Assembly: GCA_013141505.1 (NCBI GenBank)
Contig: JABFQX010000009.1
Location: 1 to 64,000, forward strand
From: Methyloglobulus sp.
Lineage (GTDB): Bacteria; Pseudomonadota; Gammaproteobacteria; Methylococcales; Methylomonadaceae
Length of the DNA: 64,000 bases
Direction of reading: 5' to 3'
Positions 1,543-49,292 of this stretch are shown here, piece after piece. Below the pieces are notes generated by a model. It saw only the letters and a program-made list of their open reading frames with translations, did not search any database and was not told the origin of the DNA. A program made the position numbers and the translations under genes. Within the stretch, counting starts at the first letter, position 1. Each line of letters opens with the position of its first letter.

Positions 1543-1569
1543 ATAGTTCTTCAAAATTAAATTACCGGG

Positions 1570-2733: not shown

Positions 2734-2803
2734 ATTTATCTCCACACAAATTATTATTTCGCATGATCTACTGTTATACAAATCTCGCGAATGAAGTGCC
2801 GCG

Positions 2804-2857: not shown

Positions 2858-3267
2858 TTCAGGCTACCTGTTAAAAATTAACGGTTTCTTAAATATAAAT
2901 ATTTAAATTTACACTTATGTTTTTCTTATTTTTTTAATAAAAACGTTTAATAACAATTATTTATAAATATTCAATAACTTATAAATCATTGCTGTAAACA
3001 TAGTTTTTACCAAATTCCAACAGAACCTAATTCGAAAGTGCGAACCATTTCACACTTAAACAATTTCATCTTTGAATATTGTGACCAACCTAACATTGTT
3101 CAATATATTTACTTTTTAAGAGTTCTTTAATGTTCAATAATTAGCATAGCTCTTCACTTATACGGTTTTCTGTAGCTTGCTAGCTACTTGGCGCATCAGA
3201 TTTTTGATTGCTTGAGTGCTACTGAGCTGGGTGCTATTTCTTTAACGGATTGTTTTTAAGGTGGTTT
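2858..3267. other. AT-rich divergent promoter region
   Basis: No gene is visible. The stretch is strongly AT-rich (about 2870-3130) and separates the minus-strand cytochrome genes from the plus-strand thioredoxin operon, so it probably carries promoters for both. A small hairpin GTAGC-TTGCTA-GCTAC lies near 3172-3187. No confident -35/-10 pair is assigned. Confidence 0.35.
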
Positions 3268-3774: not shown

Positions 3775-3784
3775 AAGGTTACTC

Positions 3785-4000
3785 ATGAAATTCATCAATT
3801 ATTTTATTTTGGCAGTGCTTGTGCTTTCCGCGACTGCTTGCACTGAAGTCATGCCAAGGCAGCGTGGTAATTTGGCGCTTTCGCAAATGGCCTTCAACAC
3901 CGATGGACTGGAGTTTGGTTTGCGCCAGCATACCGCTTACAGTAAGGAGGCCGCTGCAGGCGGTTACGGCGGCGGTGGCGGCGGTTGCGGTTGTAATTGA
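3785..4000 (+). CDS. DUF4266 small lipoprotein with GGGCGC tail
   Basis: A 71-residue protein with a short hydrophobic signal and a lipobox (SATAC), so the mature protein should start with a lipidated Cys. The DUF4266 hallmark RGNLA..QMA follows, then KEAAAGG and a C-terminal run of Gly ending GGGCGCN. Apart from the lipidated residue the only Cys are the two in that tail, a possible disulfide or metal site. ATG at 3785 has AAAGG upstream. It is more diverged than the three copies at 38.0, 41.2 and 45.4 kb. DUF4266 genes are typically found next to DUF3570 genes, as here; the function of the family is not known to me. Confidence 0.85.
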   Translation: MKFINYFILAVLVLSATACTEVMPRQRGNLALSQMAFNTDGLEFGLRQHTAYSKEAAAGGYGGGGGGCGCN

Positions 4001-5548: not shown

Positions 5549-5589
5549 GCTTAGGCCATTAACCATCACTATGTTGTTAGGTGAATAAT

Positions 5590-7515
5590 ATGAAGAACTT
5601 ATTATCAATCGTAATACTAGGGCTGTTAAGTATGAGCTTGGCTCATGCTGAAATACCCAAAGCAAGTATCAGTGCCGCACCACTGAATGGTAACCAATGG
5701 CCTGCACAGTATCGTTTAACGATGACTGTGCCCAAATACCATCACGCCTATTTGAATACTGGGGATGAAAAGATTTACATCCCGGTTTCGATAGACCCTG
5801 ATGCAAAATTGGCCGCTTCCGGCTTGGTGATCCAGAATTTAGTAAAGCCGTCGGGTGTACATGACGACCTAGTGAAAGCCAACGTGCTGCGCGACAAGGG
5901 CGATTTTACTCTGGAGTTGGCGCAATCTGGCTCAACCCCGGTAAGCGCCAAAGCGACTGATTTGGAAGTCACTTATCAGTTGTGCAACGAACTCACCAAT
6001 GTGTGTTTCCGTCCGCAAACAACACAAGTCAACCTCGCCTTACCCGCTGCGACTGTAGCGACATCTGCCCAGGCTAATGCCTCAACAGAAGATGAATCGT
6101 TGAGCTTTATGGATAAATTGCTGGGGCTGTTTGAACACAACAAAAACAACATGTTCATCATGTTTGGTTTGATGTTCATTGCTGGCCTGCTGTCAGTAGC
6201 GACACCTTGCGTTTATCCGATGTTGCCGATAACTTCGATGTTTGTTGTTGGTCGAGCCAATGGCGATGCCAGTAAGGAAAAACAACATGCCCTCGCCTAT
6301 TTTGCCGGTATGGTTCTTACCTATATGGCATTGGGATTGATGGCCGGAATGACAGGCGGTGCCTTTAACACCTTTATGCAATCCGCTTATGTCAACCTGG
6401 GCTTTGCGGTGTTTTTTGCTTTCTTTGCCATTTCGTTATTGGGCTTCTATGAACTGAGCTTTATGCAAAATGAAGTTCATTCATTGGATCAACAAACCTC
6501 TCGCGTAAAAGGCGTGACAGGTACATTGTTAATGGGCAGCGTTGCTGGCTTAGTTATTTCACCATGTGTTGGCCCCATCGTATTTGCATTGTTGTTGCAA
6601 GTTGCAGATAACATCGCCGAGAAAGCGGCCGCTCTTGCAGCCGTTAACCAAAGCCTGGATTTTTGGGGTAAATTAGCCATATCGGGTCAAGGCAGCGTGA
6701 TGATGGCTGGTTTTGGTTTGGGCGTGGGTTTGCCTTTCTTTATCATCAGCGTTGTAAAGTTTAAAAAACTGCCTAAAGCCGGTTACTGGATGAATAAAAT
6801 CAAATATGCGTTTGGTTTTATGATCCTGTACTTTGCTTATATCTATCTGGAAAAAGGCATGGGCGTATTGGGCGTTGAATCGTCAACAACCGTATCGCTG
6901 GCGATTGGCATGGTGGCTATTTGGGTTGCTGTTGTCCATTGCCACGTACTGACCTTGTTGCCAAGAGATGCACAACCTAACCAAAAAGTACAACATTACG
7001 TTGGTGTACTAACAATTCTGGTTGGCGGCTGGCTGGTATTTGCCAGCTTAGGACATCTGCCATTTATGAAAATGGCACAAGCAGAAACATTTGCACAAAA
7101 CGGCGCTGTCCAAACCGCAAAATCGGGTGTTGTACCAACAGCATTAGCAGTGCAAGAAGAAGCAGGCATATCCTGGTACAGAAGTTTTGAAGAGGCAAAA
7201 AAAGTCGCCCAAAAAACTGGCAAACCCATCTTTGTTGATTTTTATGCAAGCTGGTGTGCCAACTGTACCGAGTTTAAAAAAGAATCGGCTAACAATGCAG
7301 AACTGAACCAAGCGCTGCGCGAAAAAGCGATTGCCGTGAAATTGGTTGACAAAGAACCTGAATTTGAAAAGTTTCGTGCCAGCCAAGAACATCGCCAGTT
7401 AAAAATAGGTCTTCCTTATTTTGCCATTATCAAACCCGACGGCAAAGTAACCTGGTCAGGCACCGATTACAAAGCCACCCAAAAAATGGTTGCTGAACTT
7501 AATCGCCTGTCTTAA
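5590..7515 (+). CDS. dsbD: Thiol:disulfide interchange protein DsbD
   Basis: The ATG at 5590 is favoured over the GTG at 5581 because AGGTG lies at proper distance and a signal peptide starts directly (MKNLLSIVIL...AHA). Order of domains: periplasmic alpha domain with the Cys pair in YQLCNELTNVCF, a membrane domain of about eight spans with the redox Cys in ATPCVYPMLP and ISPCVGPI, and a C-terminal thioredoxin domain with WCANC (Cys 556 and 559). DsbD carries electrons from cytosolic thioredoxin across the membrane to periplasmic partners. Length (641 aa) is slightly longer than typical. Its position after tlpA, DUF4266 and DUF3570 genes suggests it feeds electrons to that set. The 3' end and terminator are partly duplicated at 14394-14472. 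Confidence 0.95.
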   Translation: MKNLLSIVILGLLSMSLAHAEIPKASISAAPLNGNQWPAQYRLTMTVPKYHHAYLNTGDEKIYIPVSIDPDAKLAASGLVIQNLVKPSGVHDDLVKANVLRDKGDFTLELAQSGSTPVSAKATDLEVTYQLCNELTNVCFRPQTTQVNLALPAATVATSAQANASTEDESLSFMDKLLGLFEHNKNNMFIMFGLMFIAGLLSVATPCVYPMLPITSMFVVGRANGDASKEKQHALAYFAGMVLTYMALGLMAGMTGGAFNTFMQSAYVNLGFAVFFAFFAISLLGFYELSFMQNEVHSLDQQTSRVKGVTGTLLMGSVAGLVISPCVGPIVFALLLQVADNIAEKAAALAAVNQSLDFWGKLAISGQGSVMMAGFGLGVGLPFFIISVVKFKKLPKAGYWMNKIKYAFGFMILYFAYIYLEKGMGVLGVESSTTVSLAIGMVAIWVAVVHCHVLTLLPRDAQPNQKVQHYVGVLTILVGGWLVFASLGHLPFMKMAQAETFAQNGAVQTAKSGVVPTALAVQEEAGISWYRSFEEAKKVAQKTGKPIFVDFYASWCANCTEFKKESANNAELNQALREKAIAVKLVDKEPEFEKFRASQEHRQLKIGLPYFAIIKPDGKVTWSGTDYKATQKMVAELNRLS

Positions 7516-8973: not shown

Positions 8974-8984
<11 letters not shown>

Positions 8985-10782: not shown

Positions 10783-10871
10783 GTCAATTTTTCCACCTCG
10801 TCATCCTCGTCTAGTGGCAAGTGTTCAATGCTAAAATTATTGCTTAATCAATGGATTTTGGATAGCAAAGC

Positions 10872-11894: not shown

Positions 11895-11897
11895 AAC

Positions 11898-35502: not shown

Positions 35503-36130
35503 TAGATCAATATTTAAGCTAGGGGATTTATAGATATTCCGAGAGCGTTCCGGCAGATAGCATTTGCAGATTATAAATGAACCCCTAAAAATTGCGCTTC
35601 ACAGTCTCAGCCCCCCCAATACCCAACGCAAAACCCCAAAACGGCACGCAAGACAAAGAAAAAACTGACCAAACGCAAGTTTACGGGTGCGTCAAATTGT
35701 CGCACCCCCAGAAGGCACATTTAAGCGTCAAAACCCAACTCGAAAAGAGCCGGTAAAATCGGCTGAGGCCATAAATACCAAGGCTTCGCAAAAAATATCG
35801 GCGACAAAAGATTTCTACCTCATCCCCCGAGAAATGAAGGGCAGGTGTGCAAAAAAACGCCACTTAATGGCAAAAGTTTATTTGACAAGGCAAAAGCCCA
35901 CACCTAAACTCCGTTGCAAGAAAAACGCTCCACCAAAAAAATAATAAAGCAGTATCCAAATTTTGAGAGAGAGGAAACCGGGGGGGTTGTTTACACCCAT
36001 CGTTGTCAACAACGACGGGACAGTTATCCGCAAAGGATAAGCGCGTAAACGAAAGCCTTAACCGTTGGCATTGATCGGCGATAACCCGTTCAGTGCTGGT
36101 TTGTACAATTTAATTTGTAGAAGGTTAACT
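35503..36130. other. Intergenic region between zur and HEAT-repeat gene
   Basis: About 630 bases. An 85-codon plus frame (35687-35944) encodes a very Lys-rich product without ribosome binding site or family resemblance and is probably not a gene. Promoters for the flanking genes must lie here. No repeats recognised. Confidence 0.35.
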
Positions 36131-37051
36131 ATGGGATCCTCTCGATCCTCACATTTTGCTTGGCAATTTCTGTTTGCCTGTTGGGCGTTAATCGCCGCAG
36201 GTAAACCTGTGCTTGCCCAACAGCCAGCCGACCAGAGCTCGCAACTTGGCCAGATGCCGAGCATACAATTCACCGTTATCCAACGACCAGCACCCTTGCT
36301 GCATCTCGAAGCCAGAAGTGCGCCGTTAGCGCAAATCCTGAAAACGATCGCCGACAAAACTGGCGCATTAATTCATTATTCCGTCTTGCCGGAAGCCCCA
36401 GTCACTGCCACATGTGTTGGCAGTTCAACCCAAGAAATCATGGATTGCCTGGTCGCCAAACAAGTTGGGCTGGTTGCCCACAAACCACAAAAAGACAAGC
36501 CTGCCGAATTTTGGTTGCTAGGATCCAGCGTGGGGAGTTGTCAGGCGGTGACGGTTGCGCCAGCGGTATCGCCAATCGCAGCAGTCGAACAGCAGCCCAC
36601 ACCTGAAGAGCAAGCGAAAATAGATCAGATGCTGCAAGAACAAATCGATCAACTGCTAAAACAAGCCGAATCCAAAGATCCTAACGTTCGTTCTATGGCA
36701 ATCAATTCCCTCGGTTCGTTGGGCGCTAAAAATGATCCTAATGTCGCTGAAGTCTTACGAAATGCACTGACCGATAAAGATGTCAATGTGCGTTCCCAAG
36801 CGATAACTGCCATCGCCGAACGTGGTGGGTCTGACGTTGCAGAACAACTCAGCGTAGCACTTAAGGATAATGACGCTAGCGTGAGATTATCGGCTGTGGG
36901 GCTGGCGAAAGAGGACGACATTGGTATTTTTCAGCAAGCCCTGAACGACAGCGACCTAACCGTTAAGGAGTTGGCGCAAAGCAGGCTTCAAGGACTGTCA
37001 TCCCCACAAAACCAAGGCAGCGAGGTAGAAGCGGTGGTGCCAGAAAACTAA
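36131..37051 (+). CDS. Exported HEAT-repeat protein with STN-like N-terminal domain
   Basis: 306 residues from ATG 36131 (GAAGG upstream), with a signal peptide ending near LAQ. Residues about 50-115 (HLEARSAPLAQILKTIADKTGALIHY) resemble the secretin/TonB short N-terminal domain. Residues 155-290 are HEAT-like repeats (SKDPNVRSMAINSLGSLG, TDKDVNVRSQAITAIAERG, KDNDASVRLSAVGLA). It probably acts as a periplasmic scaffold. The structured leader that follows suggests its transcript ends there. Confidence 0.7.
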   Translation: MGSSRSSHFAWQFLFACWALIAAGKPVLAQQPADQSSQLGQMPSIQFTVIQRPAPLLHLEARSAPLAQILKTIADKTGALIHYSVLPEAPVTATCVGSSTQEIMDCLVAKQVGLVAHKPQKDKPAEFWLLGSSVGSCQAVTVAPAVSPIAAVEQQPTPEEQAKIDQMLQEQIDQLLKQAESKDPNVRSMAINSLGSLGAKNDPNVAEVLRNALTDKDVNVRSQAITAIAERGGSDVAEQLSVALKDNDASVRLSAVGLAKEDDIGIFQQALNDSDLTVKELAQSRLQGLSSPQNQGSEVEAVVPEN

Positions 37052-37252: not shown

Positions 37253-37816
37253 ATGAAAAAAACTACGTTGAGAACTCTTTTAGCTGTTTCAGCCTTATCG
37301 ATTGCATCTGGTTATACCGTATTGGCACAGGCGCATTGTATTGGTGCACAAGTTGCCGCACCTATAACTGTTGCACAATTTAATCCATCAGAAATTGTCA
37401 ACGACAGCACAAACGCATTGCAATACGACAGCTATACAACCATCTGCCCGGCAGGCAGCACTAAAATGGTTGGAAGGGTTGCCAGGATTGCCGGCCCTGC
37501 TGCTGGAAACATAACACTTAGGATTGTCAGAAATACCGGTGCCGGCCTTTCTACGGCTGTAAGTGATGCAGCCCCCGGTGTAAACCAATGCGATACGAAT
37601 GCTGATGCTATAAGTGGCGCCGGTGTACCCAGTGCTTTTACAACCAGTGCTGGCGGCGCAGGGGAATATATTCTCATGGTGTCTAAGGATGATGCCGGGG
37701 CTTCTGGGACATATAACGTAGAAGCGCATTGCCAGGATGCTGCTGGCAATGAGTTCGACCCTAATAGACCTTCCGCGTCTGCACTCATCGGATGGGACAG
37801 GGTTTTCAACCACTAA
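37253..37816 (+). CDS. Secreted protein of unknown function
   Basis: 187 residues; GGAG lies upstream of ATG 37253. A signal peptide ends near AQA. The mature protein is small, Ala/Gly/Thr-rich and has five Cys (for example AHCIGAQ, TTICPAGS, NQCDTN, EAHCQDA). Its layout (D-x-YT..C.AG, then RV, ending with a Cys in a AHCQDAAGNE-like segment) resembles the C-terminal domain of the cytochrome-like proteins at 841-2733 (DGYTVTCGAGT...DIYCRNAAGAK), without a haem motif. Expressed from a structured leader. Role unknown. Confidence 0.7.
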   Translation: MKKTTLRTLLAVSALSIASGYTVLAQAHCIGAQVAAPITVAQFNPSEIVNDSTNALQYDSYTTICPAGSTKMVGRVARIAGPAAGNITLRIVRNTGAGLSTAVSDAAPGVNQCDTNADAISGAGVPSAFTTSAGGAGEYILMVSKDDAGASGTYNVEAHCQDAAGNEFDPNRPSASALIGWDRVFNH

Positions 37817-38023: not shown

Positions 38024-38242
38024 ATGATCAGCAGTATCAATACAGCAAAAATATTATTCGTTGCCGCTTTAATTTCAGCCTGCGCCCCGGTGCAGCCCTG
38101 GGAGCGCGGCAACCTTGCCAAGCCGCAGATGGCGTTAGATCCATATCCGTTACAAAGTGCGTTAAGGGCGCATAATTATGGTAGCCGCGAAGCGGCGGCG
38201 GGTGGCAATGCCGCGCAAGGGGGTGGTTGTGGGTGTTATTAG
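38024..38242 (+). CDS. DUF4266 lipoprotein, cassette 1
   Basis: 72 residues with lipobox (ISAC), then PWERGNLAKPQMALDPYPL and the C-terminal QGGGCGCY. A block of 34 residues from VQPWERG to NYGSRE is identical in the cassette 2 and 3 paralogs, although about half the codons differ by silent changes between copies 1 and 2. The mature form is lipid-anchored, probably in the outer membrane, and carries just two other Cys, in the GCGC tail. The end of the gene (AAGGGGG then GTG) may serve as ribosome binding site and start of the overlapping barrel gene. Start has AGGGGAA upstream. Confidence 0.88.
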   Translation: MISSINTAKILFVAALISACAPVQPWERGNLAKPQMALDPYPLQSALRAHNYGSREAAAGGNAAQGGGCGCY

Positions 38243-41174
38243 CAGGAAAGCAAAAAAGCCTTATCTCAGGCATTTGATTAAGTCCTTCGACAGGCTCAGG
38301 ACGAACGGTAATCTATTAAGTTCGGTGGCGTTGAGTCCGTTCGTGGTGAGCCTGTCGAACCATGAGCGGACTCAACTGGCTAATAGATTGCTTAAAAAGC
38401 CGGAATGTGCCTCTTTACAAGCATTAACCGCCGCTGCCCTTATCTTACCGGGCTTATTCCAGCCAACAGCAAAAGCCGCCGAGGATGACAGCGTCGATTT
38501 TCAATATAACCATTACCAGGAAGGCAAGCGTGATGGTATTAATCTATTTCTTACAAATAAGGATACGAGTATAGCCAGCAAGTACGCTTACGCTATCCCC
38601 AAAAAACGCAACCCTATCGAGGTAGATAGCCTGCATGGCAGTGCCAGGGTTAGCCTGACTGACAGGGTCAAATTTGCTTTTAACTACATCGAAGACACTT
38701 GGTCGGGAGCCACCCCTTTTGGTAGCGCACCGGAACAGTCCGGCGCCAATGGCGGTGGCAGGGGAGGTACTACTTTTTTAGATGGTAAGCCCATTATTAG
38801 CGGCGCAACACCGATAGCAAGATCCAACACCTATCTGGATGGACAAGGCAATAGCTTTTACAAAGTGACCGATCCCATTACAGGGCAATCATCCTTTTTG
38901 AAAGACCGGGCGGTGCATGTGCTGGGTTATGCTTCGCCGGAAACCCGCAAGCAAGGCGACTTTAAGCTCAGTTACGAATGGGATGAGGCGGCTTTGAATA
39001 TGGGCGGGGGCATTTCTATCGAACGGGATTATGAATCCCGTTTTGTTAACTTGGGAGGCCGCATGGATTTTAACCAGAAGCAAACCACGGTCAATTTAGG
39101 CTTAAGTTATACCAACAGCGCGATTAGTGCAGTGATTGATCCATCTGCCTTTCACTGGACATCAAAAATCGAGGAGAATAAATTGATCACTCATAACCCA
39201 ATAACTTCTCTGAATACCTTAAACAGCAACCGAGAGGATTGGGCGGCCCATCTGGACTTAACCCAAGTGATTAACCCCAACACTGTAATGGGGTTGGGTA
39301 TGGGTTATACCCGCAGCACCGGTTATCTGGCAAATCCTTATAAGTTTGCCTGGATTTATGGGGTAGACCCCAATTTACCCGACCCTATTTTTGAAGGGCT
39401 ACCGACTGGTATCTTTAAAGCCCATTCGGGCATGTTCCTTGAACAACGCCCGGATGTGCGTAACCAATGGAACTGGTCTGCCCGCTGGACGCAATATTTG
39501 GAGCCTTTGAATGCAGCGGTGCATGTTGGCTATAGCTTTGCCCATGACGACTGGGGCATTAACGCCCATACGTTTGAGGGCGATTGGGTGCAGCCTTTGG
39601 GGGCGGGTTGGACGGTAACGCCACGTATCCGTTACTACTCGCAAGAGGCGGCGGATTTTTATCAGCCTATCTTCAAGGTTAACGCAACAATTGACCATTT
39701 AACAGGTACTTTAGACGTTCGCCAATTGAATATCCCCGATAATTTTTCCAGCGACCAGCGTTTGTCTGGGTATGGCGCGTTAAGCGGCGGGGTGACCGTT
39801 GCCAAGGAGTTTGCCAAAGGCATCGGGCTGGAAGCAGGATTTGAATATTACACCCACCAGGGCAGCCTGAAGCTAGGCGGCGGCGGTGAACAAGCCTTTG
39901 CCGATTTTGACTACTGGGTTGCCAATGCTGCGCTTAAGGTTAATTTATCTGCTTTGGGGCAAGGCGGAGCAAGCGGTGGTGGCGGACACGGCAACCATAA
40001 CGACCATCCCAATATACCGGCTGGCATCCTATTTGCCCATACTTTGGATAAGGCTGGGGACATGATGGTCGGCTACCGCCACAACCGTGCCATGCAGGGC
40101 GGTGATTACCTCCACGGCACCCAACACGTCGGTGAGCCGCAGGTAGTCGCCCAGGGTTGCCCAGGATCACCTCGGCAGGGGTCAGTTGGTCAACCTGACG
40201 GCTGTTCCCTCCTGCCTGGGGAAATGGCCATGACCATGCACATGCTGGAATTGATGGTTGCCCCCACTGATTGGCTGACCTTGATGCTGATGCCACAGTT
40301 TATGGATATGGCGATGGAAATGGATATGACTATGGACAACACCTCGCAGCCGTCAGCCCACGCTGCTTTAGGCCATAGAAGGGAACATGAGACTGGCGGC
40401 ATTGGCGATACGGGCATGTACGCCTTGGTTAAACTGTTTGATACGCCTCAGCACCATATCCATGCCAGTTTGGGCTTCAGTGCCCCTACAGGTGATGTCG
40501 GCATTAGGCGAGCAGAAGGCGGCAATTATAGTGGCCCGTTTATTGACTATGGCATGCAGTTGGGTAGTGGTACCTGGGATTTCAAGCCCAGCCTGACTTA
40601 TACCGGCAAAGCCAATGACTGGTCTTGGGGCGCACAAGTCGGCGGCATCAAACGTCTTGAAGGCAGCAATCAATCCGGCTATGCCTTGGGTGACTTGTTT
40701 GAAACCAGCGTGTGGGGTGGTTACGATCTGACCCGCTGGCTGTCCGCCACAATACGGGCATCCTATACTTGGCAGGGGGTAATCAAAGGTAGGTATCCCC
40801 GCCGTAAAGCGATTGATGCATCGATTGAATTGCAGTGCAAAATACAGTCTACTGATCCTGATTCATACGATGAATTTGGTGTCCTTAGGCCGTCGGTATT
40901 CCATCCCGATGCTTATAAACAATGTCTTATTGATTCTGAAAGTGCGAAACAACTTGCCGATGCCGCAGACCGCCCTTCTCCATCGGATTTCCCTGCCAAT
41001 TATGGCGGCCATTATGGCGACATCGGCTTTGGCCTGAGTGCTACTGTACCCACTGGTGCATTGGCTGGCAATAAACTCAGCTTTGAATGGCTGCAACCCG
41101 TGTACACCGATGTCAACGGCTACCAGCTAGACCGCGACGGCGCGTTATCGTTTACTTGGAGCTATGGGTTTTAA
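38229..41174 (+). CDS. DUF3570 barrel fused to a second Met/His-rich barrel, cassette 1
   Basis: The chosen GTG at 38229 lies inside the DUF4266 gene in the +1 frame, behind its AAGGGGG; no ATG exists in frame between that gene's stop and the signal peptide core (LTAAALILPGLFQPTAKA), so a TTG at 38388 or another GTG is possible. Residues about 85-580 are DUF3570 (EVDSLHGSARVSLTDRVKF, DDWGINAHTFEGDWVQP, PRIRYYSQEAADFYQP, EAGFEYYTHQGSLKLGG). After GGGGHGNHNDHPN a second barrel-type domain has a Cys pair (CPGSP...DGC), MHMLELMVAPTDWLTLMLMP and MDMAMEMDMTMD, and ends LSFTWSYGF with the terminal Phe of outer-membrane proteins. The translated leader includes a palindromic repeat (38283-38389). Met/His richness suggests copper handling, unproven. 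Confidence 0.8.
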   Translation: MGVISRKAKKPYLRHLIKSFDRLRTNGNLLSSVALSPFVVSLSNHERTQLANRLLKKPECASLQALTAAALILPGLFQPTAKAAEDDSVDFQYNHYQEGKRDGINLFLTNKDTSIASKYAYAIPKKRNPIEVDSLHGSARVSLTDRVKFAFNYIEDTWSGATPFGSAPEQSGANGGGRGGTTFLDGKPIISGATPIARSNTYLDGQGNSFYKVTDPITGQSSFLKDRAVHVLGYASPETRKQGDFKLSYEWDEAALNMGGGISIERDYESRFVNLGGRMDFNQKQTTVNLGLSYTNSAISAVIDPSAFHWTSKIEENKLITHNPITSLNTLNSNREDWAAHLDLTQVINPNTVMGLGMGYTRSTGYLANPYKFAWIYGVDPNLPDPIFEGLPTGIFKAHSGMFLEQRPDVRNQWNWSARWTQYLEPLNAAVHVGYSFAHDDWGINAHTFEGDWVQPLGAGWTVTPRIRYYSQEAADFYQPIFKVNATIDHLTGTLDVRQLNIPDNFSSDQRLSGYGALSGGVTVAKEFAKGIGLEAGFEYYTHQGSLKLGGGGEQAFADFDYWVANAALKVNLSALGQGGASGGGGHGNHNDHPNIPAGILFAHTLDKAGDMMVGYRHNRAMQGGDYLHGTQHVGEPQVVAQGCPGSPRQGSVGQPDGCSLLPGEMAMTMHMLELMVAPTDWLTLMLMPQFMDMAMEMDMTMDNTSQPSAHAALGHRREHETGGIGDTGMYALVKLFDTPQHHIHASLGFSAPTGDVGIRRAEGGNYSGPFIDYGMQLGSGTWDFKPSLTYTGKANDWSWGAQVGGIKRLEGSNQSGYALGDLFETSVWGGYDLTRWLSATIRASYTWQGVIKGRYPRRKAIDASIELQCKIQSTDPDSYDEFGVLRPSVFHPDAYKQCLIDSESAKQLADAADRPSPSDFPANYGGHYGDIGFGLSATVPTGALAGNKLSFEWLQPVYTDVNGYQLDRDGALSFTWSYGF
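38283..38389. repeat. Palindromic repeat at the 5' end of barrel gene, cassette 1
   Basis: TCCTTCGACAGGCTCAGGA and CGTTCGTGGTGAGCCTGTCGAA are inverted arms, and AATCTATTA (38310) pairs with TAATAGATT (38381). The same repeat sits at the matching place in cassette 2 but not in cassette 3. It keeps the reading frame open. Confidence 0.75.
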
Positions 41175-41224
41175 CGTATTCAACCCAATCATCACTTTCA
41201 ACTTTTTGGATTAAGTAATTGAGC

Positions 41225-41449
41225 ATGGCCTTATCAAAACCATTTATTAGCTTAAGCTTTTGTTTAACCCTTTTGTGTCTTGTTGCCTGTGCCACGGTAC
41301 AACCTTGGGAACGCGGTAATCTTGCCAAACCGCAGATGGCTTTAGACCCTTATCCGCTGCAAAGCGCGCTACGGGCACACAACTATGGTAGCCGGGAAGT
41401 GGCGGCGGGTAGCAATGCGGCGCAAGGAGGTGGTTGTGGGTGTTATTAA
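41225..41449 (+). CDS. DUF4266 lipoprotein, cassette 2
   Basis: 74 residues from ATG 41225 (a TTG at 41219 is also in frame). Lipobox LVAC, then the same 34-residue block as the other two cassettes and the tail AAQGGGCGCY. Differences lie only in the signal peptide and the spacer (SREVAAGSN). It begins 50 bases after the cassette 1 barrel gene. Its 3' end supplies the perfect AAGGAGG ahead of the next gene's GTG. Confidence 0.88.
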   Translation: MALSKPFISLSFCLTLLCLVACATVQPWERGNLAKPQMALDPYPLQSALRAHNYGSREVAAGSNAAQGGGCGCY

Positions 41450-44336
41450 CAGGACAGCAAAAAAACGTTATTTTAAGGCATCATTGATTAAGTCCTTCGA
41501 CAAGCTCAGGACGAACGGTAATCTATTGGGTTCAGCGGCGTTGAGTCCGTTCGTGGTGAGACTGTCGAACCACTTGTGCCGCAATAGGTATGAACGGAAG
41601 CAACAGGCTAATAGATTCCTTAAAAAACCGGAATGCAACTCCTTACATGCCCTCACCGCCGCCGCCTTGGTGTTACCGGGGCTGATGCAGCCTATATTGG
41701 TTAACGCCACCGAAGATGACAGCGTGGATTTCCAGTACAGCCATTACCAGGAAGGCAAGCGCGATATTTATCAAGGCGTATATTTTTCAGACCTAACTGC
41801 TGGTATATCAGGCATTAATGGCAGCCATAAACAAAGCTACAACAATCCGATTGAGGTGGACAGTGTGCATGGTAGCGGGCGCTTTAGCCTGACTGACCGC
41901 ATCAAGTTCAGCTTTAATTATCTGCAAGATACCTGGAGCGGTGCCACGCCGGTCGGCACTGCACCAGCGCTTTTAAGTGCGAATGGCAGTTATTCCCCAG
42001 AGATTGTCAATTCGGGCGCATCGCCTTATGGCTCACCTAGTATTCCCACTGTTTATATAGACAATAAAGGGAACATGTACGGCGTGAAAAACAGTTTTAT
42101 TGACGGCTCGAATACAATAGGCGCTCAAAGTAACCAGATTACCCATGTGATGTCCTATGCTTCGCCGGAAACCCGCAAGCAGGGCGACTTTTCCTTGAGT
42201 TACGACTGGGACGAGGCAGCCGTGAATGTGGGCGGCGGCATCTCGGTGGAAAACGATTATGAATCGCGCTTTGTTAACCTGGGTGGGCGTATGGATTTCA
42301 ACCAGAAACAAACCACGGTTAATGTGGGCGTTAGCTATACCAACAGCGACACCTTTGCTAAGTTGGACCCGGACTCTTTGAATTTTATTAGCACTGAAGG
42401 CTATGATGAGCAATATTTTGATGACACCGATGGTTCTTATAAAGGTTACCGGCCTATAGCAGGTGCCCCTGGACAAATCGAAAGTGATTATACCAGCCTT
42501 AGTGATGGCGGGAATTTTCGATCAAGCGCGATACTGCACGGTAAACGCCAGGATTGGGGCACCCAACTCGGCCTGACCCAAGTGCTTACTTCGGAAAGCA
42601 CAATGGAGCTTGGCTTTGGTTATACCCGCAGCACCGGGTATTTGGCCAACCCTTATAAGTTGGTCTATTTTTTAAGTGGTACGCTTAATGTGGGCGACGA
42701 TCCCAATGCCCCTATCTTATACAACACAGGAGGCGGCGCACGCTTGGAAAAACGCCCCGAAGAACGCAATCAGTTCAACTGGAACCTAGGTTATAACCAT
42801 TACCTGCCGTTTTTCGATGCCGCCTTGCATTTTGACTATCGCTTTAGCCACGACGACTGGGGCATCAATGCCCACACCTTTGAAGCGGACTGGGTGCAGC
42901 CTTTGGGAACGGGTTGGACGGCTACGCCGCGCATCCGTTATTACAGCCAGTCCGGTGCCGATTTTTATACCCCGTTTGTTAAGACCCTTGCCGTTAACGA
43001 TCCAGCCACTGGGGAAAAGGTAAACAGCCCTTATACCCGTGAAGCGCCTGAATTTTATTCCAGCGACCAGCGCTTGTCCGGATTCGGCGCATTAAGCGGC
43101 GGGGTGACGATAGCCAAACAATTCGGCAAAGGCGTTAGCCTGGAAACCGGTTTTGAGTATTACACGCACCAAGGCAACCTAAAAATAGGCGGTGGTGGCG
43201 AACAAGCCTTCGCCGATTATGATTATTGGGTAGCCAATGCGGCGTTAAAACTAAATCTGGAAGCCGCTGGCGCACCCGGCAGCTCAACGGGACATATAAG
43301 CCATCACCAACACAGCAACTCACCAGCGGGGGTCATGTTTGACCACGCCTTGGAAAAGTCCGGCGACTTTATGGTGGGTTACCGTTATATGCGTAGCGAA
43401 CAGGCAGGCAATATGCTGTTGGGCAGCCATTCAATAAGCCCAGATAATACGAGAAACAATGGTTGTGGTGACCAAGCATGTGCGGTTGCCCCAAAATCTA
43501 TGGTTATGAATATGCACATGCTGGATTTGATGGTGGCACCAACCGATTGGTTTAGCTTGATGCTGATGCCGCAGTGGATGGATATGAATATGGACATGAC
43601 ACCATTGTCTGGTTTTGTTTCACAAACCGGGCATAACCACGGTGGTTCAACACATAACCATCAAACTGGTGGTATTGGCGATACCGGACTTTATGCCTTA
43701 TTTAAGCTGTTCGACCAACCTAATCAGCATTTGACGTTAAGTTTGGGAGGTACAGCCCCGACCGGGGATGTCGATATAAAATTGAGAACAACATCAAGCA
43801 TTACTAATAAAGTAAAAAATGTTCCGCTCCATTACGGTATGCAACTGGGCAGTGGCACCTGGGATTTCAAGCCCAGCCTGACTTATACCGGCGAAGCTGA
43901 CAGTTTTATTTGGGGCGCACAAGCAACCGGCACCAAGCGCCTGGAAAGCCGCAATTCAGCAGGCTTTGCTTTCGGCGACAGCTTCCAGGGCAGCGTCTGG
44001 GGCGGCTACCAGTGGACAAACTGGCTGACCACGACTGTGCGCGGCATTTATGCCACCCAAGGCTCGATACGCGGCGAATACCCGGCTGTTTATTATGCTA
44101 ACAGGAAACCACCGCAAGAATTCAAGCTTATCCACGTTGGCCCTTTCGATAAAACCAACAACTACGGCGGTAAGTTTTGGGATTTGGGCTTGGGTGTCAA
44201 TATCAATATTCCCCACGGCACATTTGCGGGTAATAGCCTGAAGTTCGAATGGCTGCAACCCGTCCATACCGACTACAACGGCTATCAACTGGATCGGGAC
44301 TATACGTTTAACTTTACTTGGAGTTACGGGTTTTAA
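41436..44336 (+). CDS. DUF3570 barrel fused to a second Met/His-rich barrel, cassette 2
   Basis: GTG 41436 has a perfect AAGGAGG five bases upstream, inside the DUF4266 coding region, and is the best start signal of the three paralogs; there is no in-frame ATG before the signal core (ALTAAALVLPGLMQP). Same two-domain plan: DUF3570 landmarks (GSGRFSLTDRIKFSFNYLQDTWSG split, DDWGINAHTFEADWVQP, PRIRYYSQSGADFY), His-rich linker HISHHQHSNSP, a Cys pair NGCGDQACAV, Met-rich MNMHMLDLMVAPTDW and MDMNMDMTP, a His-rich HNHGGSTHNHQTGG, and the final WSYGF. The FKBP gene follows closely. Outer-membrane location is inferred from the C-terminal Phe and strands. Confidence 0.8.
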   Translation: MGVINRTAKKRYFKASLIKSFDKLRTNGNLLGSAALSPFVVRLSNHLCRNRYERKQQANRFLKKPECNSLHALTAAALVLPGLMQPILVNATEDDSVDFQYSHYQEGKRDIYQGVYFSDLTAGISGINGSHKQSYNNPIEVDSVHGSGRFSLTDRIKFSFNYLQDTWSGATPVGTAPALLSANGSYSPEIVNSGASPYGSPSIPTVYIDNKGNMYGVKNSFIDGSNTIGAQSNQITHVMSYASPETRKQGDFSLSYDWDEAAVNVGGGISVENDYESRFVNLGGRMDFNQKQTTVNVGVSYTNSDTFAKLDPDSLNFISTEGYDEQYFDDTDGSYKGYRPIAGAPGQIESDYTSLSDGGNFRSSAILHGKRQDWGTQLGLTQVLTSESTMELGFGYTRSTGYLANPYKLVYFLSGTLNVGDDPNAPILYNTGGGARLEKRPEERNQFNWNLGYNHYLPFFDAALHFDYRFSHDDWGINAHTFEADWVQPLGTGWTATPRIRYYSQSGADFYTPFVKTLAVNDPATGEKVNSPYTREAPEFYSSDQRLSGFGALSGGVTIAKQFGKGVSLETGFEYYTHQGNLKIGGGGEQAFADYDYWVANAALKLNLEAAGAPGSSTGHISHHQHSNSPAGVMFDHALEKSGDFMVGYRYMRSEQAGNMLLGSHSISPDNTRNNGCGDQACAVAPKSMVMNMHMLDLMVAPTDWFSLMLMPQWMDMNMDMTPLSGFVSQTGHNHGGSTHNHQTGGIGDTGLYALFKLFDQPNQHLTLSLGGTAPTGDVDIKLRTTSSITNKVKNVPLHYGMQLGSGTWDFKPSLTYTGEADSFIWGAQATGTKRLESRNSAGFAFGDSFQGSVWGGYQWTNWLTTTVRGIYATQGSIRGEYPAVYYANRKPPQEFKLIHVGPFDKTNNYGGKFWDLGLGVNINIPHGTFAGNSLKFEWLQPVHTDYNGYQLDRDYTFNFTWSYGF
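41493..41618. repeat. Palindromic repeat at the 5' end of barrel gene, cassette 2
   Basis: Counterpart of the cassette 1 repeat (TCCTTCGACAAGCTCAGGA ... GTTCGTGGTGAGACTGTCGAA, with AATCTATT and AATAGATT outside). The right part has an extra 21 bases compared with cassette 1, which leaves the frame unchanged. Confidence 0.7.
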
Positions 44337-44391
44337 CTTGCATAGACAGAATCTTTTCAAAATCAATACCATCAAGCTATTTATGTGCAAA

Positions 44392-45156
44392 ATGAACAGA
44401 CGAATACACCTTTTAACCCTTGCCCTACCCGCGCTTTTACTGGGCTGCGCGGCAACCCCACCCACAGGCAACAAAGCGCCGGTATTGTCCACCGATATGC
44501 AAAAGTCAAGCTACGCCCAGGGCGTACAGTACATGCAGATATTGCAACAAAGTGAAATCCCGCTCGATACCGGACTGTTCCTATTGGGCATCAACGATGT
44601 CTTGGCTAAACAGCCGTTGCGCCTGAATAGTGAGCAACTACAACGCGGCAAGGACTGGGTATATGTGCAGCAGATGTTATATCTGGATCGTACCAGCAAG
44701 AAGAATTTGGCAGATGGCGAAGCGTTCCTTAAGCAAAATAAAACCAAGGGCGGTATTGTCAGTTTAGCCAGCGGTGTCCAATACAAAGTGCTGGCTGACA
44801 GCGGCAAGACACTTAAACCGACATTAAAAGATACGGTCGCGTTACGTTACCGGATAAAAAAACTGAACGGCGAGGAGGTTTTTGCCACGGACAGCACATC
44901 CAAGCCGGAAGCCATTAAGGTAGCCAATGTGCTTAAAGGCTGGCAAGAAGCCCTGCTATTAATGCCGGAAGGTTCAAAATGGGAGATCTACGTGCCAGGG
45001 TCTTTGGCTTATGGGGAAAACGTCGCCCCGGAAAGCAAGGTCAAGCCGAATGAGTTGATGGTTATTGACGTTGAACTGGTTGCGATTAACCCGCCTACCA
45101 GCGCAGCCAATAATGCAAGTGCGAAGCCAATCATTAAAAAGACATCAAGCTGGTAG
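44392..45156 (+). CDS. FKBP-type peptidyl-prolyl isomerase lipoprotein, cassette 2
   Basis: 254 residues from ATG 44392, chosen to match the cassette 3 paralog; ATG 44383 is equally in frame. Lipobox LLGC. An N-terminal helical FKBP_N domain (LSTDMQKSSYAQGVQYMQIL) is followed by the FKBP domain (DTVALRYRIKKLNGEEVF, LKGWQEALLLMPEGSKWEIY, YVPGSLAYGENVAPE, ELMVIDVELV). Such isomerases speed folding of exported proteins. Its place right after the large barrel gene suggests it helps fold that barrel or its partner. Confidence 0.88.
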   Translation: MNRRIHLLTLALPALLLGCAATPPTGNKAPVLSTDMQKSSYAQGVQYMQILQQSEIPLDTGLFLLGINDVLAKQPLRLNSEQLQRGKDWVYVQQMLYLDRTSKKNLADGEAFLKQNKTKGGIVSLASGVQYKVLADSGKTLKPTLKDTVALRYRIKKLNGEEVFATDSTSKPEAIKVANVLKGWQEALLLMPEGSKWEIYVPGSLAYGENVAPESKVKPNELMVIDVELVAINPPTSAANNASAKPIIKKTSSW

Positions 45157-45376
45157 CCCGTTAGTACGCATAAGGGCGGGGCAATAATTTGAAATAGCCT
45201 ACCCATAACCCTAGCTTACTTTAAGGCACAAGCCTTACCTATTGGGGAGATGAAAAATGGACAGTCGTTTAGGATGCCCTGTACGCACCAAATCCGATGC
45301 ATGGAATACAGGCTACCTCGCCATACCTATAAAACGCCGCCCGAAAACAACAATAAAAACACTAACAAGGCATGAA

Positions 45377-45601
45377 ATGAGGCTAATTGAACTAACCACA
45401 AAAGTGTTGCTGACCGTAACAGCGATTTGGCTTACCGCCTGCGCCCCCGTGCAACCTTGGGAGCGCGGCAATCTCGCCAAACCGCAAATGGCATTGGATC
45501 CTTATCCTTTGCAAAGTGCTTTACGAGCGCACAACTATGGTAGCCGCGAGGCGGCGGCGGGTGGCAATGCCACGCAAGGGGGCGGTTGTGGCTGCTATTA
45601 A
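45377..45601 (+). CDS. DUF4266 lipoprotein, cassette 3
   Basis: 74 residues from ATG 45377 (AAGG upstream); the longer frame from 45257 lacks a signal peptide at its start and is rejected. Lipobox LTAC, then the invariant 34-residue block and the tail NATQGGGCGCY. It lies 220 bases after the FKBP gene of cassette 2. Confidence 0.88.
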   Translation: MRLIELTTKVLLTVTAIWLTACAPVQPWERGNLAKPQMALDPYPLQSALRAHNYGSREAAAGGNATQGGGCGCY

Positions 45602-48404
45602 AAAGTTAAACCGTCATTACGGCAGGAATGACGAAGATTGTTTTGACTTAACAGGATTTTCAAAAAGCGAAGTGCTGGCTAAAACCCTATCCTTATCCCT
45701 GCACGCACTAACTGCCGCTGCCCTCATTTTGCCGGGTCTACTTCATCAAACTGCCCAAGCCGCCGCCGATGACGACGAAATTGATTTCCAATATAGCCAT
45801 TATCAGGAAGGTAAGCGCGATCAGGGTCAAGCTACACGTCCATTTAATGACGGCACAAAGGACGTAAATTTAAAGCTACCCAGTTATCGCAATCCCATTG
45901 AAGTTGAAGGTGTTCGCGGAAGTGCTAGGATTAGCTTGACAGACAGGGTCAAATTCGCTTTCAACTATATCCAAGACACTTGGTCTGGGGCGACCCCATT
46001 GGCTACCGCACCGGAGCACAGCTTAAAGGTTAATCAATTAGGTAACGATCAAAATGGCAATCCTATCATCGTTAGTAGAGCTACACCGGAACTGACCTAT
46101 CTGGATAGTAAAAATAGGCCTTACTATTTCAATGACCAAGGTACTTTGCTTAAAGATAAATATTTGCATATTTTATCGTATGCTTCACCGGAAACCCGAA
46201 AACAGGGTGATTTCAAATTGACCTACAATTGGGATCAAGCCGCACTTGATATAGGGGGCGGTATTTCAGTAGAAAATGATTATGAATCCCGTTTTGCTAA
46301 CATAGGTGGTCGTTTGGATTTTAACCAAAAACAAACAACCGCAAATGCCGGAGTTAGTTATACGAATAGCGAGATTAATGCTAATGTTAATTTTGGCGGT
46401 ATTGAATTGTTGAATGCAACCAGGCAGGATTGGGCCAGCCAAATCGGCCTGACCCAAGTGATCAATCAAAACGCCATATTAAATCTGGGCATCGGTTACA
46501 CTCGTAGCACCGGTTATCAAGCCAACCCCTACAAAGCCGCAGTGTTTTACTACAAACGAAATGACCCTTACGATCCATCTTATGCAGACTACATTATTGG
46601 TAATAAAGTCCGCTCTGAAGGTTTTACCGTGTTGGAACAACGACCTGATGTTCGCAACCAGTGGAACTGGAGTTTACGCTGGCTGCAATACATTAAGCCA
46701 TTAGATGCCGCACTGCATTTTAACTACAGTTTTAATCTGGATGATTGGGGGATTAATGCCCATACCTTTGAAGCAGATTGGGTGCAACCATTGGGGAAGG
46801 GATGGACAATCACACCGAGAATCCGTTATTACTCTCAAGAATCTGCTAGTTTTTATCAGCCGACATTTGTTGCTGGTGGTAAATATGATCCATTAAATTA
46901 CCCCTACATCCTCGATAAACTGCCAAATTATTTCTCCAGCGATCAGCGCCTGTCCGGTTACGGTACCTTAAGTGGCGGTATTTCCGTAAGCAAAGAATTT
47001 GCTAAAGGCATTCGCCTGGATACGGGCATTGAATATTACACGCACCAAGGCGCACTTAAACTGGGCGGCGGGGGTGAGGCAGATTTTGCCGATTTCGATT
47101 CTTGGGTTGCCAATGCGTCACTTAAAGTTAATTTATCGTCAGTAGGGCATGGACTTGTTCATGGTGACTCTGCCCATGGAAACCAACATCGCCACCCAAA
47201 CATACCGGCAGGGGTATTATTCGGTCATACCCTAGAAAAAGCGGGCGATGTGATGGCGGGCTACCGGTATATGCACGGCTGGCAAGCCGGGCATTTCATG
47301 CAAGGAGACAGTAATGTTAACGAACAACAGATTTTGAATAATAGTTGCCCTGGCTCAGTCCGATTTGATGAGGTACAGCAGCAATTATATTTTGATGGGC
47401 CATGTACATCATTACCCCAGTCAATGTCGATGAATATGCACATGCTGGATTTGATGTATGCTCCAACAGATTGGCTCACCTTAATGCTGATGCCGCAATT
47501 TGTTGATATGCAAATGGATATGTATACGCCGGACTCGGCAACAACATTAGGTCATTCCTCGCATGGCGGAGGAGGCAGTCATAGCGGGCACACAACACAA
47601 AGCGGAGGAATCGGTGATACGGGGATGTATGCATTGGTAAAATTATTTGATAATTCCCAGCATCACGTCCACATCACTTTTGGTCTCAGTGCACCCACCG
47701 GGGATGTTGGTATTAAACTTAAAGGCGGCATCGAAGATTTACATGGGCCAGCTAATGTTGACGGTGCCTACACCCATTATGGCATGCAATTAGGCAGCGG
47801 CACCTGGGATTTAAAACCTAGTTTGACGTATACAGGAGCATTTAATGATTGGAACTGGGGAGCGCAAGTAGCGGGGACTAAACGCCTGGAAAACAGCAAT
47901 TCCTCAGGTTATGCCTTGGGTGATATCTTTGAAACCAGCCTTTGGGGTGGATATGATTTAACTCATTGGTTATCCACCACCCTAAGGGTCGCTTACAGTT
48001 GGCAAGGTGCTATCAAAAACCATTATCCTTATGGTCGTAAAGATTATGTGGCTCCTGACTGTAAACAGAGTGATTATATACGCGCTGACGATAATAACGG
48101 CGATGGTATACCAGACAGCGCTGCTTATTTTCATCAAAGTGAGTTTAGTAGTTGCCAGATTTTCATTTCAACTTATAGAAGGAGAATAGATAGTCTGGAT
48201 CGTCCTTCCCCGATGGACTTCCCGCAAAACTACGGTGGTCATTATGTCGATGTTGGCTTCGGCATTGCCGCGACAATACCGGACGGTGCTTTTGCTGGCC
48301 ATCGCTTTGCATTTGAATGGTTACAACCTGTTTATACCGATGTAAATGGTTACCAACTTGATCGAGATGGTGCATTGTCTGCAACCTGGAGTTACGGGTT
48401 TTAG
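45588..48404 (+). CDS. DUF3570 barrel fused to a second Met/His-rich barrel, cassette 3
   Basis: GTG 45588 lies inside the DUF4266 gene after AAGGGGG; a GTG at 45672 directly before the signal peptide (LAKTLSLSLHALTAAALILPG) is the main alternative. No palindromic repeat is present in its leader. DUF3570 domain with GSARISLTDRVKFAFNYIQ, DDWGINAHTFEADWVQP, PRIRYYSQESASFYQP. Linker HGDSAHGNQHRHPNIP is His-rich. The second domain has a wide Cys pair (NNSCPGS...GPCTS), MSMNMHMLDLMYAPTDW, MQMDMYTP, SSHGGGGSHSGHTT, and ends LSATWSYGF. A stretch NNGDGIPD near residue 850 looks like a calcium-type loop. The FKBP paralog follows 111 bases later. Confidence 0.8.
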   Translation: MAAIKKLNRHYGRNDEDCFDLTGFSKSEVLAKTLSLSLHALTAAALILPGLLHQTAQAAADDDEIDFQYSHYQEGKRDQGQATRPFNDGTKDVNLKLPSYRNPIEVEGVRGSARISLTDRVKFAFNYIQDTWSGATPLATAPEHSLKVNQLGNDQNGNPIIVSRATPELTYLDSKNRPYYFNDQGTLLKDKYLHILSYASPETRKQGDFKLTYNWDQAALDIGGGISVENDYESRFANIGGRLDFNQKQTTANAGVSYTNSEINANVNFGGIELLNATRQDWASQIGLTQVINQNAILNLGIGYTRSTGYQANPYKAAVFYYKRNDPYDPSYADYIIGNKVRSEGFTVLEQRPDVRNQWNWSLRWLQYIKPLDAALHFNYSFNLDDWGINAHTFEADWVQPLGKGWTITPRIRYYSQESASFYQPTFVAGGKYDPLNYPYILDKLPNYFSSDQRLSGYGTLSGGISVSKEFAKGIRLDTGIEYYTHQGALKLGGGGEADFADFDSWVANASLKVNLSSVGHGLVHGDSAHGNQHRHPNIPAGVLFGHTLEKAGDVMAGYRYMHGWQAGHFMQGDSNVNEQQILNNSCPGSVRFDEVQQQLYFDGPCTSLPQSMSMNMHMLDLMYAPTDWLTLMLMPQFVDMQMDMYTPDSATTLGHSSHGGGGSHSGHTTQSGGIGDTGMYALVKLFDNSQHHVHITFGLSAPTGDVGIKLKGGIEDLHGPANVDGAYTHYGMQLGSGTWDLKPSLTYTGAFNDWNWGAQVAGTKRLENSNSSGYALGDIFETSLWGGYDLTHWLSTTLRVAYSWQGAIKNHYPYGRKDYVAPDCKQSDYIRADDNNGDGIPDSAAYFHQSEFSSCQIFISTYRRRIDSLDRPSPMDFPQNYGGHYVDVGFGIAATIPDGAFAGHRFAFEWLQPVYTDVNGYQLDRDGALSATWSYGF

Positions 48405-48515
48405 GCGAACGATTTAACTTGTTATTTTTACTTGGCTCGGACTGATTTTATAGCCAATAGCTGAGCTTTGCAGTCTGAACGGTTTTTAAAATTTTATGAT
48501 TATGTGTGAGCCTTA

Positions 48516-49292
48516 ATGAATAAACCACTATTTCCCTTAGCAATTTGCTCTCTAACTCTAATTATTGGTTGTGCCACAACGCAATCACCAACACCTGTTG
48601 CAAGTAAAGAACCGGTATTAAGCACGGACATGCAAAAATCCAGTTATGCCCAAGGCGTGCAATACGCTGAACTGTTACAACGTAATGAGATACCGGTTGA
48701 CGGTGATCTATTTTTGTTGGGAATAAATGACGTACTTAATAAAAAACCGATGCGGCTTAATCCCGAACAATTACAACGCGGCAAGGATTGGCTTTATGTG
48801 CAACAGATGTTATATATGGATAGGACTAGCAAGAAAAACATCGCGGATGGCGACGCTTTTCTAAAGCAGAATAAAAATAAGGCGGGGGTGGTCAGCCTGC
48901 CAAGTGGGGTGCAATATAAAATAATTTCTGGCAGTAAAAACAAGCAAAAGCCGACCCTAAAAGACACGGTAGCTATGAACTATAAAGTCCGCAAACTGGA
49001 TGGTGAGGTGTTTTTCTCAACCGAAAAAGAGCCTAAAGCACCGATAGTGAAAGTCAGTACCGTAATTCCGGGCTGGCAGAAAGCCTTGTTAAAAATGCCG
49101 GTTGGATCGAAATGGGAGCTTTATGTGCCTGGGCCACTAGCATACGGTGAGAATGTGGCTCCGGAAGGAAAGCTAAAGCCGAACGAATTAATGGTTATTG
49201 AAACAGAACTGGTGGAAATTAACCCAGTCCAAACTATCTCAAGCAAGGACTCTGCTAGTAAGCCAATCATTACAAAAACTTCAAGCTGGTAG
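48516..49292 (+). CDS. FKBP-type peptidyl-prolyl isomerase lipoprotein, cassette 3
   Basis: 258 residues, lipobox IIGC, FKBP_N domain (LSTDMQKSSYAQGVQYAELL) and FKBP domain (DTVAMNYKVRKLDGEVFF, IPGWQKALLKMPVGSKWELY, PGPLAYGENVAPE). Both FKBP paralogs end with KPII(K/T)KTSSW. Sequence is close to the cassette 2 copy throughout. No FKBP gene follows cassette 1. Confidence 0.88.
   Translation: MNKPLFPLAICSLTLIIGCATTQSPTPVASKEPVLSTDMQKSSYAQGVQYAELLQRNEIPVDGDLFLLGINDVLNKKPMRLNPEQLQRGKDWLYVQQMLYMDRTSKKNIADGDAFLKQNKNKAGVVSLPSGVQYKIISGSKNKQKPTLKDTVAMNYKVRKLDGEVFFSTEKEPKAPIVKVSTVIPGWQKALLKMPVGSKWELYVPGPLAYGENVAPEGKLKPNELMVIETELVEINPVQTISSKDSASKPIITKTSSW

Follow-up and report, generated by a model that had tools for sequence, protein, structure and literature searches.

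Tandem cassettes in the window

The window analyzed here is a 64,000-nucleotide stretch of the genome of Methyloglobulus sp. (assembly GCA_013141505.1, contig JABFQX010000009.1, positions 1 to 64,000). It contains three consecutive cassettes, each encoding a small DUF4266 lipoprotein and a long protein in which a DUF3570 barrel is fused to a second, methionine-rich barrel. The first-pass annotation had placed three such units at 38–49 kb, and open reading frames (ORFs) with Pfam or genome-search matches are found there. The locus starts upstream of cassette 1, with a HEAT-repeat protein and a small secreted protein with an N-terminal histidine. The features of the locus are as follows (E, E-value; HMM, profile hidden Markov model; FMN, flavin mononucleotide; ↓, predicted signal-peptide cleavage).

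36065..37051, + strand: exported HEAT-repeat protein ahead of the cassettes (Pfam HEAT_2, E 4.8e-15; own HMM, E 2e-80)
37253..37816, + strand: small secreted sml-family protein whose predicted mature form starts with His (AQA↓HCIG; sml HMM, E 8e-18)
38024..38242, + strand: cassette 1 DUF4266 lipoprotein with a C-terminal CxC (GGGCGCY; PF14086, E 2.4e-22)
38178..41174, + strand: cassette 1 DUF3570-barrel fusion ORF (PF12094, E 4.3e-118); signal peptide begins near 38412, exact start codon uncertain; two FMN-site motifs SGATP, at residues 176 and 208
40017..41174, + strand: cassette 1 second, Met-rich barrel (alignment; METB HMM, E 4e-149)
41219..41449, + strand: cassette 2 DUF4266 lipoprotein (PF14086, E 6.1e-21)
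41385..44336, + strand: cassette 2 DUF3570-barrel fusion ORF (PF12094, E 1.9e-116; AlphaFold2 model); signal peptide near 41640; FMN-site motifs SGATP and SGASP
43323..44336, + strand: cassette 2 second barrel of 12 strands with a COG4313/FapF-type channel fold (VIA-align to 4rl8)
44338..45156, + strand: FKBP-type peptidyl-prolyl isomerase lipoprotein after cassette 2 (PF01346, E 5.9e-17; PF00254, E 1.8e-14)
45257..45601, + strand: ORF of the cassette 3 DUF4266 lipoprotein, domain at 45449-45595 (PF14086, E 8.7e-22 in the genome search)
45516..48404, + strand: cassette 3 DUF3570-barrel fusion ORF (PF12094, E 1.7e-110); first FMN motif SGATP intact, second SRATP
47205..48404, + strand: cassette 3 second barrel (METB HMM, E 3e-147)
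48516..49292, + strand: FKBP-type peptidyl-prolyl isomerase lipoprotein after cassette 3 (PF01346, E 1.5e-18; PF00254, E 1.3e-17)

The DUF3570 domains of the three cassettes score 370–395 bits against a Pfam cut-off of 25. The match is confined to roughly the first 500 residues of the 962–998-residue fusion ORFs, and the remaining 337–399 residues of the three fusions have no Pfam match. The true start of the fusions is uncertain because the ORFs as counted run on upstream and overlap DUF4266; the long frames reported earlier are present, and the length of 938–981 residues given for them is subject to the same uncertainty. The dispersed palindromic repeat TTCGACAAGCTCAGGACGAACGG, found at 38286-38359, at 41496-41518, and on the reverse strand at 9236-9258, sits between the DUF4266 stop codon and the fusion signal peptide in cassettes 1 and 2, not 3. 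It is because of this repeat that the long fusion reading frame stays open in cassettes 1 and 2. The DUF4266 lipoproteins of all three cassettes end in GGGCGCY, and the window copies overall carry the previously noticed GGGCGC tail followed by Tyr or Asn. Pfam searches of all cassette proteins gave no match to plug or TonB-receptor domains.

FKBP_N and FKBP_C domains are present in the lipoproteins that follow cassettes 2 and 3, as first described. The isomerase had been considered dedicated to the system, yet it accompanies just 4 of the 13 fusions in the genome and is found in 5 of 78 other loci, and is therefore an accessory of a minority of copies.

Two barrels and their secreted partners

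The AlphaFold2 model of the cassette 2 fusion, built on 77 sequences, contains two separate complete barrels (predicted local distance difference test score, pLDDT, 84.3; predicted template modeling score, pTM, 0.83), in agreement with the earlier proposal that a second barrel is joined to DUF3570. According to the list of strands, the protein is composed of a 16-strand barrel (residues ~28-540), a His-rich linker, and a 12-strand barrel (577-898). Residues ~25-540 match porin-like barrels in VIA-align comparisons. The first ApbE site, DTW[S/G/A]GATP, is located in strand 3 of barrel 1, and the second, of the [TVSA]GA[ST]P type, in the long loop after this strand. Provided that both termini are periplasmic, the loop with site 2 would face the outside. 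The acceptor Thr of site 1 and the Ser/Thr of site 2 are retained in 77/77 fusions. Two [ST]GA[ST] motifs are present in cassettes 1 and 2 and one in cassette 3, where the second is SRAT. DUF3570 of Chlorobium luteolum has been shown to be flavinylated by its ApbE at two [ST]GA[ST] sites (PMC8238504). Judging from the acceptor motifs and flavinylated homologs, the fusions are predicted to carry covalent FMN.

The second barrel was recognized by fold comparison alone, as a sequence search of the fusion against solved structures returned nothing usable. Residues 564-898 of the cassette 2 fusion align with the COG4313 channel 4rl8 over 252 residues (VIA-align Z 23.9, root-mean-square deviation 2.7), and FapF is the second-best match (residues 554-898, Z 23.1). 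The 12-strand fold is thus shared with COG4313 channels (Pput2725, PDB 4rl8; PMC4493636) and FapF (PDB 5o65), with Z of 23–24 over 252–261 residues. The barrel of the window differs from them in having only 15% identity, a conserved methionine ladder, the fusion to DUF3570, and an invariant pair of cysteines in the fusions. PF13557, the expected family for the second barrel, gave no match. The fold of the second domain is known, yet it is not a known transporter family with an assigned role and no link to DUF4266.

Methionine accounts for 5.4% of the residues in the second barrel versus 1.1% in the first half of the fusion. Met 578, 621, 623, 625, 627, 631, 641, 643, 649, 651, and 734 are 99–100% conserved among the fusions; two Cys in the first loop of the barrel are invariant. 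The alternation of hydropathy places the methionines of strands 1–3 before Pro644 on a polar, lumen-type face, and the second barrel thus appears to carry a near-invariant methionine ladder that is probably mostly lumen-facing. In stand-alone relatives of the second barrel, six of the Met columns are retained in 26–33 of 33 sequences and the Cys pair is not retained. One stand-alone relative (L146) is encoded directly before a PCuAC copper chaperone, the neighbors of the others are mixed, and three of these relatives have no Pfam match. OprC, a copper-binding TonB-dependent transporter, is an outer-membrane precedent for a methionine track for Cu(I) (PMC8610252). Its Met-rich Cu(I) path resembles the one proposed here, whereas the fusion has two barrels with flavin sites in place of a TonB receptor.

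Two families of secreted proteins accompany the fusions, and neither has a Pfam or NCBIfam match. The AxA↓H-type junction is present in 72 of 89 sml proteins. The aligned sml members retain His1, two Cys (99%), a His-Cys pair, an HTGT motif, and a C-terminal QxQ. The H313 proteins have about 313 residues and an N-terminal His; 43 of 51 family members have the AxA↓H pattern. The 29 aligned H313 members, which were picked by this pattern, all have the N-terminal His; an HxC and a single Trp (the column of W228) are likewise invariant. A sequence search of H313 against solved structures returned nothing usable. In the structure search with the H313 model, YcnI, already considered as a lead before that search, was the best match (Foldseek rank 1, E 2.4e-3). 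The top structural matches, 7me6, 8um6, and 7mek, have Z of 10.1–10.5, the best being 10.5 over 125/129 residues. In YcnI, Cu(II) is bound by the N-terminal His together with a Glu and a Trp close by (PMC8424229). H313 is therefore predicted to fold like the copper protein YcnI (DUF1775), with which it also shares the N-terminal His, and its one invariant Trp may correspond to Trp137 beside the copper site of YcnI.

Operon plan, relatives, and age of the array

A scan of bacterial genomes for the second domain identified 78 loci, nearly all in Methylococcales (Methylobacter, Methylovulum, Methylomonas, Methyloglobulus, and Crenothrix), plus one in Nitrosomonadaceae. Within the genome of the window and its relatives, 33 of 61 genomes have a match, mostly as ORFs of 850–1000 residues. 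There are usually one or two copies per genome, and many Methylomonadaceae-type genomes have a single-copy operon; three genomes of the window's genus have 14, 13, and 8 matches. Clustering of all proteins around the fusions revealed one operon plan: H313, HEAT, one to three sml, TlpA, DUF4266, fusion, ApbE, and a spermidine-synthase-like protein. When only loci with enough flanking sequence are counted, DUF4266 lies upstream of the fusion in 62/72 loci, sml is present in 45/50, TlpA is near the fusion in 36/46, and ApbE is downstream in 36/59. The sml family is found in 63/78 loci by clustering. The flank criterion left just three testable loci for HEAT and H313 and was uninformative, so per-locus cluster counts were used for them instead (45/78 and 43/78, respectively). 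DUF4266 ends in GGGCGC[YN] in 71/71 related loci. The profile search and neighbor table thus bear out the conserved linkage, and the notion of a distinct outer-membrane system, put forward in the first-pass annotation. The spermidine-synthase-like family stands beside ApbE in 35/78 loci; a representative is a 516-residue membrane protein at L025:6086-7636 (-) with a PF01564 match at E 0.014.

The linkage to sml allows the reading that barrel 2 is a FapF-type secretion channel that exports the sml proteins, while the flavin barrel, TlpA, and FKBP serve disulfide formation or folding of the exports. It would account for the rank of the amyloid-export channel FapF among the structural matches, for the presence of sml in most loci, with two near-invariant Cys and a conserved QxQ end, and for the FKBP that follows some copies. 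The likeness to FapF is, however, no stronger than that to COG4313 uptake channels, protein export gives no evident reason for the near-invariant methionine ladder, and the stand-alone relatives of the second barrel lack sml neighbors in the loci read. We consider such a secretion role unlikely.

Methionine-rich outer-membrane proteins of the CopB/PcoB type also occur in copper resistance. The same methionine ladder and His-N-terminal proteins could belong to a system that exports or detoxifies copper, in which Cu(I) leaves through the Met-lined barrel and flavin redox chemistry maintains copper as Cu(I). The genes conserved in the operon include no CusCBA, CopA, or multicopper oxidase cluster, and YcnI has been described as a part of copper acquisition (PMC8424229), which makes copper export the least probable of the readings that we weighed.

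In a background sample of 398 Pseudomonadota genomes, DUF3570 is otherwise a protein of 389–492 residues, and the fusion occurs only in the host genome of the window (G000) and in one other (G162). The clusters of plain DUF3570 keep the core TlpA-DUF4266-DUF3570, mostly with ApbE. PmoA/AmoA is above the cut-off in 3/398 genomes, two of which are the fusion carriers. As the host genome was chosen by the finding itself, the independent support amounts to one genome of two versus 0/395. Judged by the distribution of AmoA/PmoA and DUF3570, the fusion seems to elaborate a more widespread system in organisms with copper monooxygenases.

The wider system is represented in the window by a shorter unit at 3.3–5.4 kb, reported earlier to lack the second barrel. 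It consists of TlpA, DUF4266, and DUF3570, and is followed by a DsbD-type carrier that extends to 7.5 kb. Two further secreted proteins precede it.

841..1596, - strand: secreted CxxCH (heme c-like) protein with a C-terminal sml domain (sml HMM, E 7e-26; CTSCH motif)
2026..2781, - strand: second secreted CxxCH protein with a C-terminal sml domain (sml HMM, E 4e-29; CTSCH motif)
3250..3774, + strand: TlpA-like thioredoxin of the short classical unit (TlpA HMM, E 2e-58)
3677..4000, + strand: ORF of the short-unit DUF4266, domain at 3848-3997 (PF14086, E 2.9e-17)
4050..5354, + strand: short DUF3570 protein without the second barrel (PF12094, E 1.1e-103)
5581..7515, + strand: DsbD-type transmembrane thiol-electron carrier (PF02683, E 1.8e-29 within 6157-6852) with a C-terminal thioredoxin region (TlpA HMM, E 1e-6)

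Downstream of this unit, at 7965-12467, lies a block resembling DNA-methylase or restriction genes, with an ORF resembling RhuM-type proteins.

Clusters of TlpA, DUF4266, DUF3570, and ApbE, some with a DsbD-type protein, were described by Meheust et al. 2021 in eLife (PMC8238504), and the operons of the fusions have the same four core genes, CxC lipoprotein, and FMN acceptor motifs. The co-occurrence of DUF4266 and DUF3570 noticed at first pass is thus correct, while the accompanying statement that their function is not established needs amendment, since DUF3570 is a demonstrated substrate of ApbE and the linkage to DUF4266, TlpA, and DsbD had already been published (PMC8238504). The short unit at 3.3–7.5 kb is of the published type, except that it has no ApbE beside it. 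Unlike in the published clusters, DUF3570 is fused here to a second, Met-lined barrel, and HEAT, H313, and sml are added; in the genome of the window, the cassette has 13 copies and ApbE would act in trans.

The two CxxCH proteins show that the His-N-terminal sml family has heme-bearing, redox relatives. This favors a reading in which the system exports electrons to Fe(III), minerals, or a soluble shuttle, and not to copper, with barrel 1 as a flavin conduit and barrel 2 as a structural or shuttle channel. Flavinylated DUF3570 has been proposed to function in electron transfer, some of its clusters adjoin the VIT1 ferrous-iron transporter (PMC8238504), and Methylobacter performs extracellular electron transfer (PMC13322032). 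Like porin-cytochrome conduits (MtrCAB and the Methylobacter locus; PMC13322032), the fusion would offer electrons a path through an outer-membrane barrel. The carrier would be flavin in place of a multiheme cytochrome: no multiheme protein is among the conserved operon clusters, and the CxxCH proteins of the window have one motif each. Electron export leaves unexplained the methionine ladder, the N-terminal His of H313 and most sml proteins, the YcnI-like fold, and the restriction to AmoA/PmoA organisms, and a separate MtrAB-type locus has been proposed for that role in Methylobacter (PMC13322032). We regard it as rather improbable, although less so than protein secretion by barrel 2.

The host genome is that of a 3.87 Mb methanotroph with two PF02461 (PmoA/AmoA family) genes. 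DUF3570 occurs at 15 places in it, of which 13 are long fusions, one is the short protein, and one is a broken fragment. Of its 12 DUF4266 genes, one has an internal stop and one lacks an adjoining fusion, which points to birth and death of cassettes. The remnants are a truncated DUF3570 (L012:7018-7518 (-)), a DUF4266 with an in-frame TGA (L015:6508-6711 (-)), and a DUF4266 without a fusion (L021:8784 (-)). TlpA and ApbE, present in related loci, are not beside the three window cassettes. Four ApbE genes are present in the genome. The operon-type one (E 4e-174) is located on contig C69, next to its usual spermidine-synthase-like neighbor and without a cassette, and would therefore act in trans.

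The second barrels of host paralogs are 52–65% identical to that of cassette 1, with 52% for cassette 2 and 57% for cassette 3. In a tree of 95 fusions, cassettes 1 and 3 belong to a different supported subclade than cassette 2. Cassettes 1 and 2 each group with copies from Methyloglobulus sp. WB-IL-21; the L041 copy, which groups with cassette 2, likewise has an FKBP beside it. The divergence of the paralogs and their placement in the tree indicate that the array is old and not an assembly error. An assembly artifact or recent tandem duplication was ruled out by the 52–57% identity of the second barrels, the separate subclades, and the same tandem layout on other contigs (L030, L032); the same fusion, moreover, occurs in 78 other loci. 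Intact DUF4266 copies are 92–100% identical in protein and 78–87% in DNA, which indicates strong constraint by purifying selection and rules out gene conversion. A search for a plasmid origin gave no match in plasmids.

A candidate route for copper reduction and uptake

We propose that the paralogous cassettes encode a flavin-dependent redox system with which methane and ammonia oxidizers reduce and import copper at the outer membrane, and we assign this a probability of about 0.45. Electrons would pass from the inner-membrane DsbD-type carrier to the TlpA thioredoxin, from TlpA to the CxC pair of the DUF4266 lipoprotein, and from there to one or two ApbE-attached FMN on the DUF3570 barrel. 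The flavins of barrel 1 would reduce extracellular Cu(II), and Cu(I) would enter the periplasm along the methionine ladder of the fused barrel 2. Periplasmic His-N-terminal proteins, the YcnI-like H313 and sml, may receive Cu(I) for particulate methane monooxygenase (pMMO) or ammonia monooxygenase (AMO), and FKBP may help the folding or assembly of some copies. The core redox chemistry of the thiol-to-flavin chain is likely. The electron route, copper as the substrate, and the direction of transport are our inferences. Copper is suggested by four separate hints, none of them conclusive: the methionine ladder, the YcnI-like partner, the taxonomic restriction, and the one PCuAC neighbor. A more specific version makes a single two-barrel polypeptide a flavin-driven metal reductase-importer: its covalent flavins would conduct electrons across barrel 1 to Cu(II), and the resulting Cu(I) would enter through the Met-lined barrel 2 and supply the copper monooxygenases. 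This version seems doubtful to us at present. The initial suggestion of a role in metal or electron handling has evidence in favor of each of the two, and the first-pass interpretation as a whole is partly supported.

Several observations weigh against copper reduction and import. The roles of the fusion, H313, and sml in flavin or metal handling are predictions from sequences and models. The lumen-facing methionines were deduced from alternation and hydropathy, and Met649 and Met651 are on the other face by the same count. Uptake of hydrophobic molecules is the presumed function of COG4313 channels (PMC4493636). H313 differs from YcnI in its greater length, extra invariant HxC, and identity of just 7–8%; no match to the DUF1775 Pfam family was found in any of 29 members at E 1, and the H313 model is of moderate quality (pLDDT 74). 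The two heme-type sml proteins leave room for electron transfer to an acceptor other than copper. The association with AmoA/PmoA rests on few genomes, one of which is that of the window.

The site of flavinylation is also uncertain, as the operon ApbE lacks a signal peptide in 38/39 cases. Cytosolic ApbEs are known (PMC12052999), and flavinylation may therefore precede export. Signal-peptide-less ApbE linked to DUF3570, despite the exported outer-membrane target, was seen at L025:8226-9158 (-), in L033-L106, and in L156-L180. We considered it a peculiarity of methanotrophs and rejected this, since in other Pseudomonadota, too, the ApbE encoded next to plain DUF3570 starts without an obvious signal peptide, and the feature seems general.

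Gammaproteobacterial methanotrophs need copper for pMMO, and the copper acquisition described in the literature involves methanobactin with TonB transporters and surface proteins of the CorA/MopE type. The operon with its predicted flavinylated barrel, Met-lined channel, and YcnI-like partners is a concrete candidate for reducing and taking up copper, and one that can be deleted. If the proposal is correct, it would provide the first physiological role for the DUF3570/DUF4266 system, which is flavinylated but has no known substrate, and porin-cytochrome conduits would have a flavin-based equivalent.

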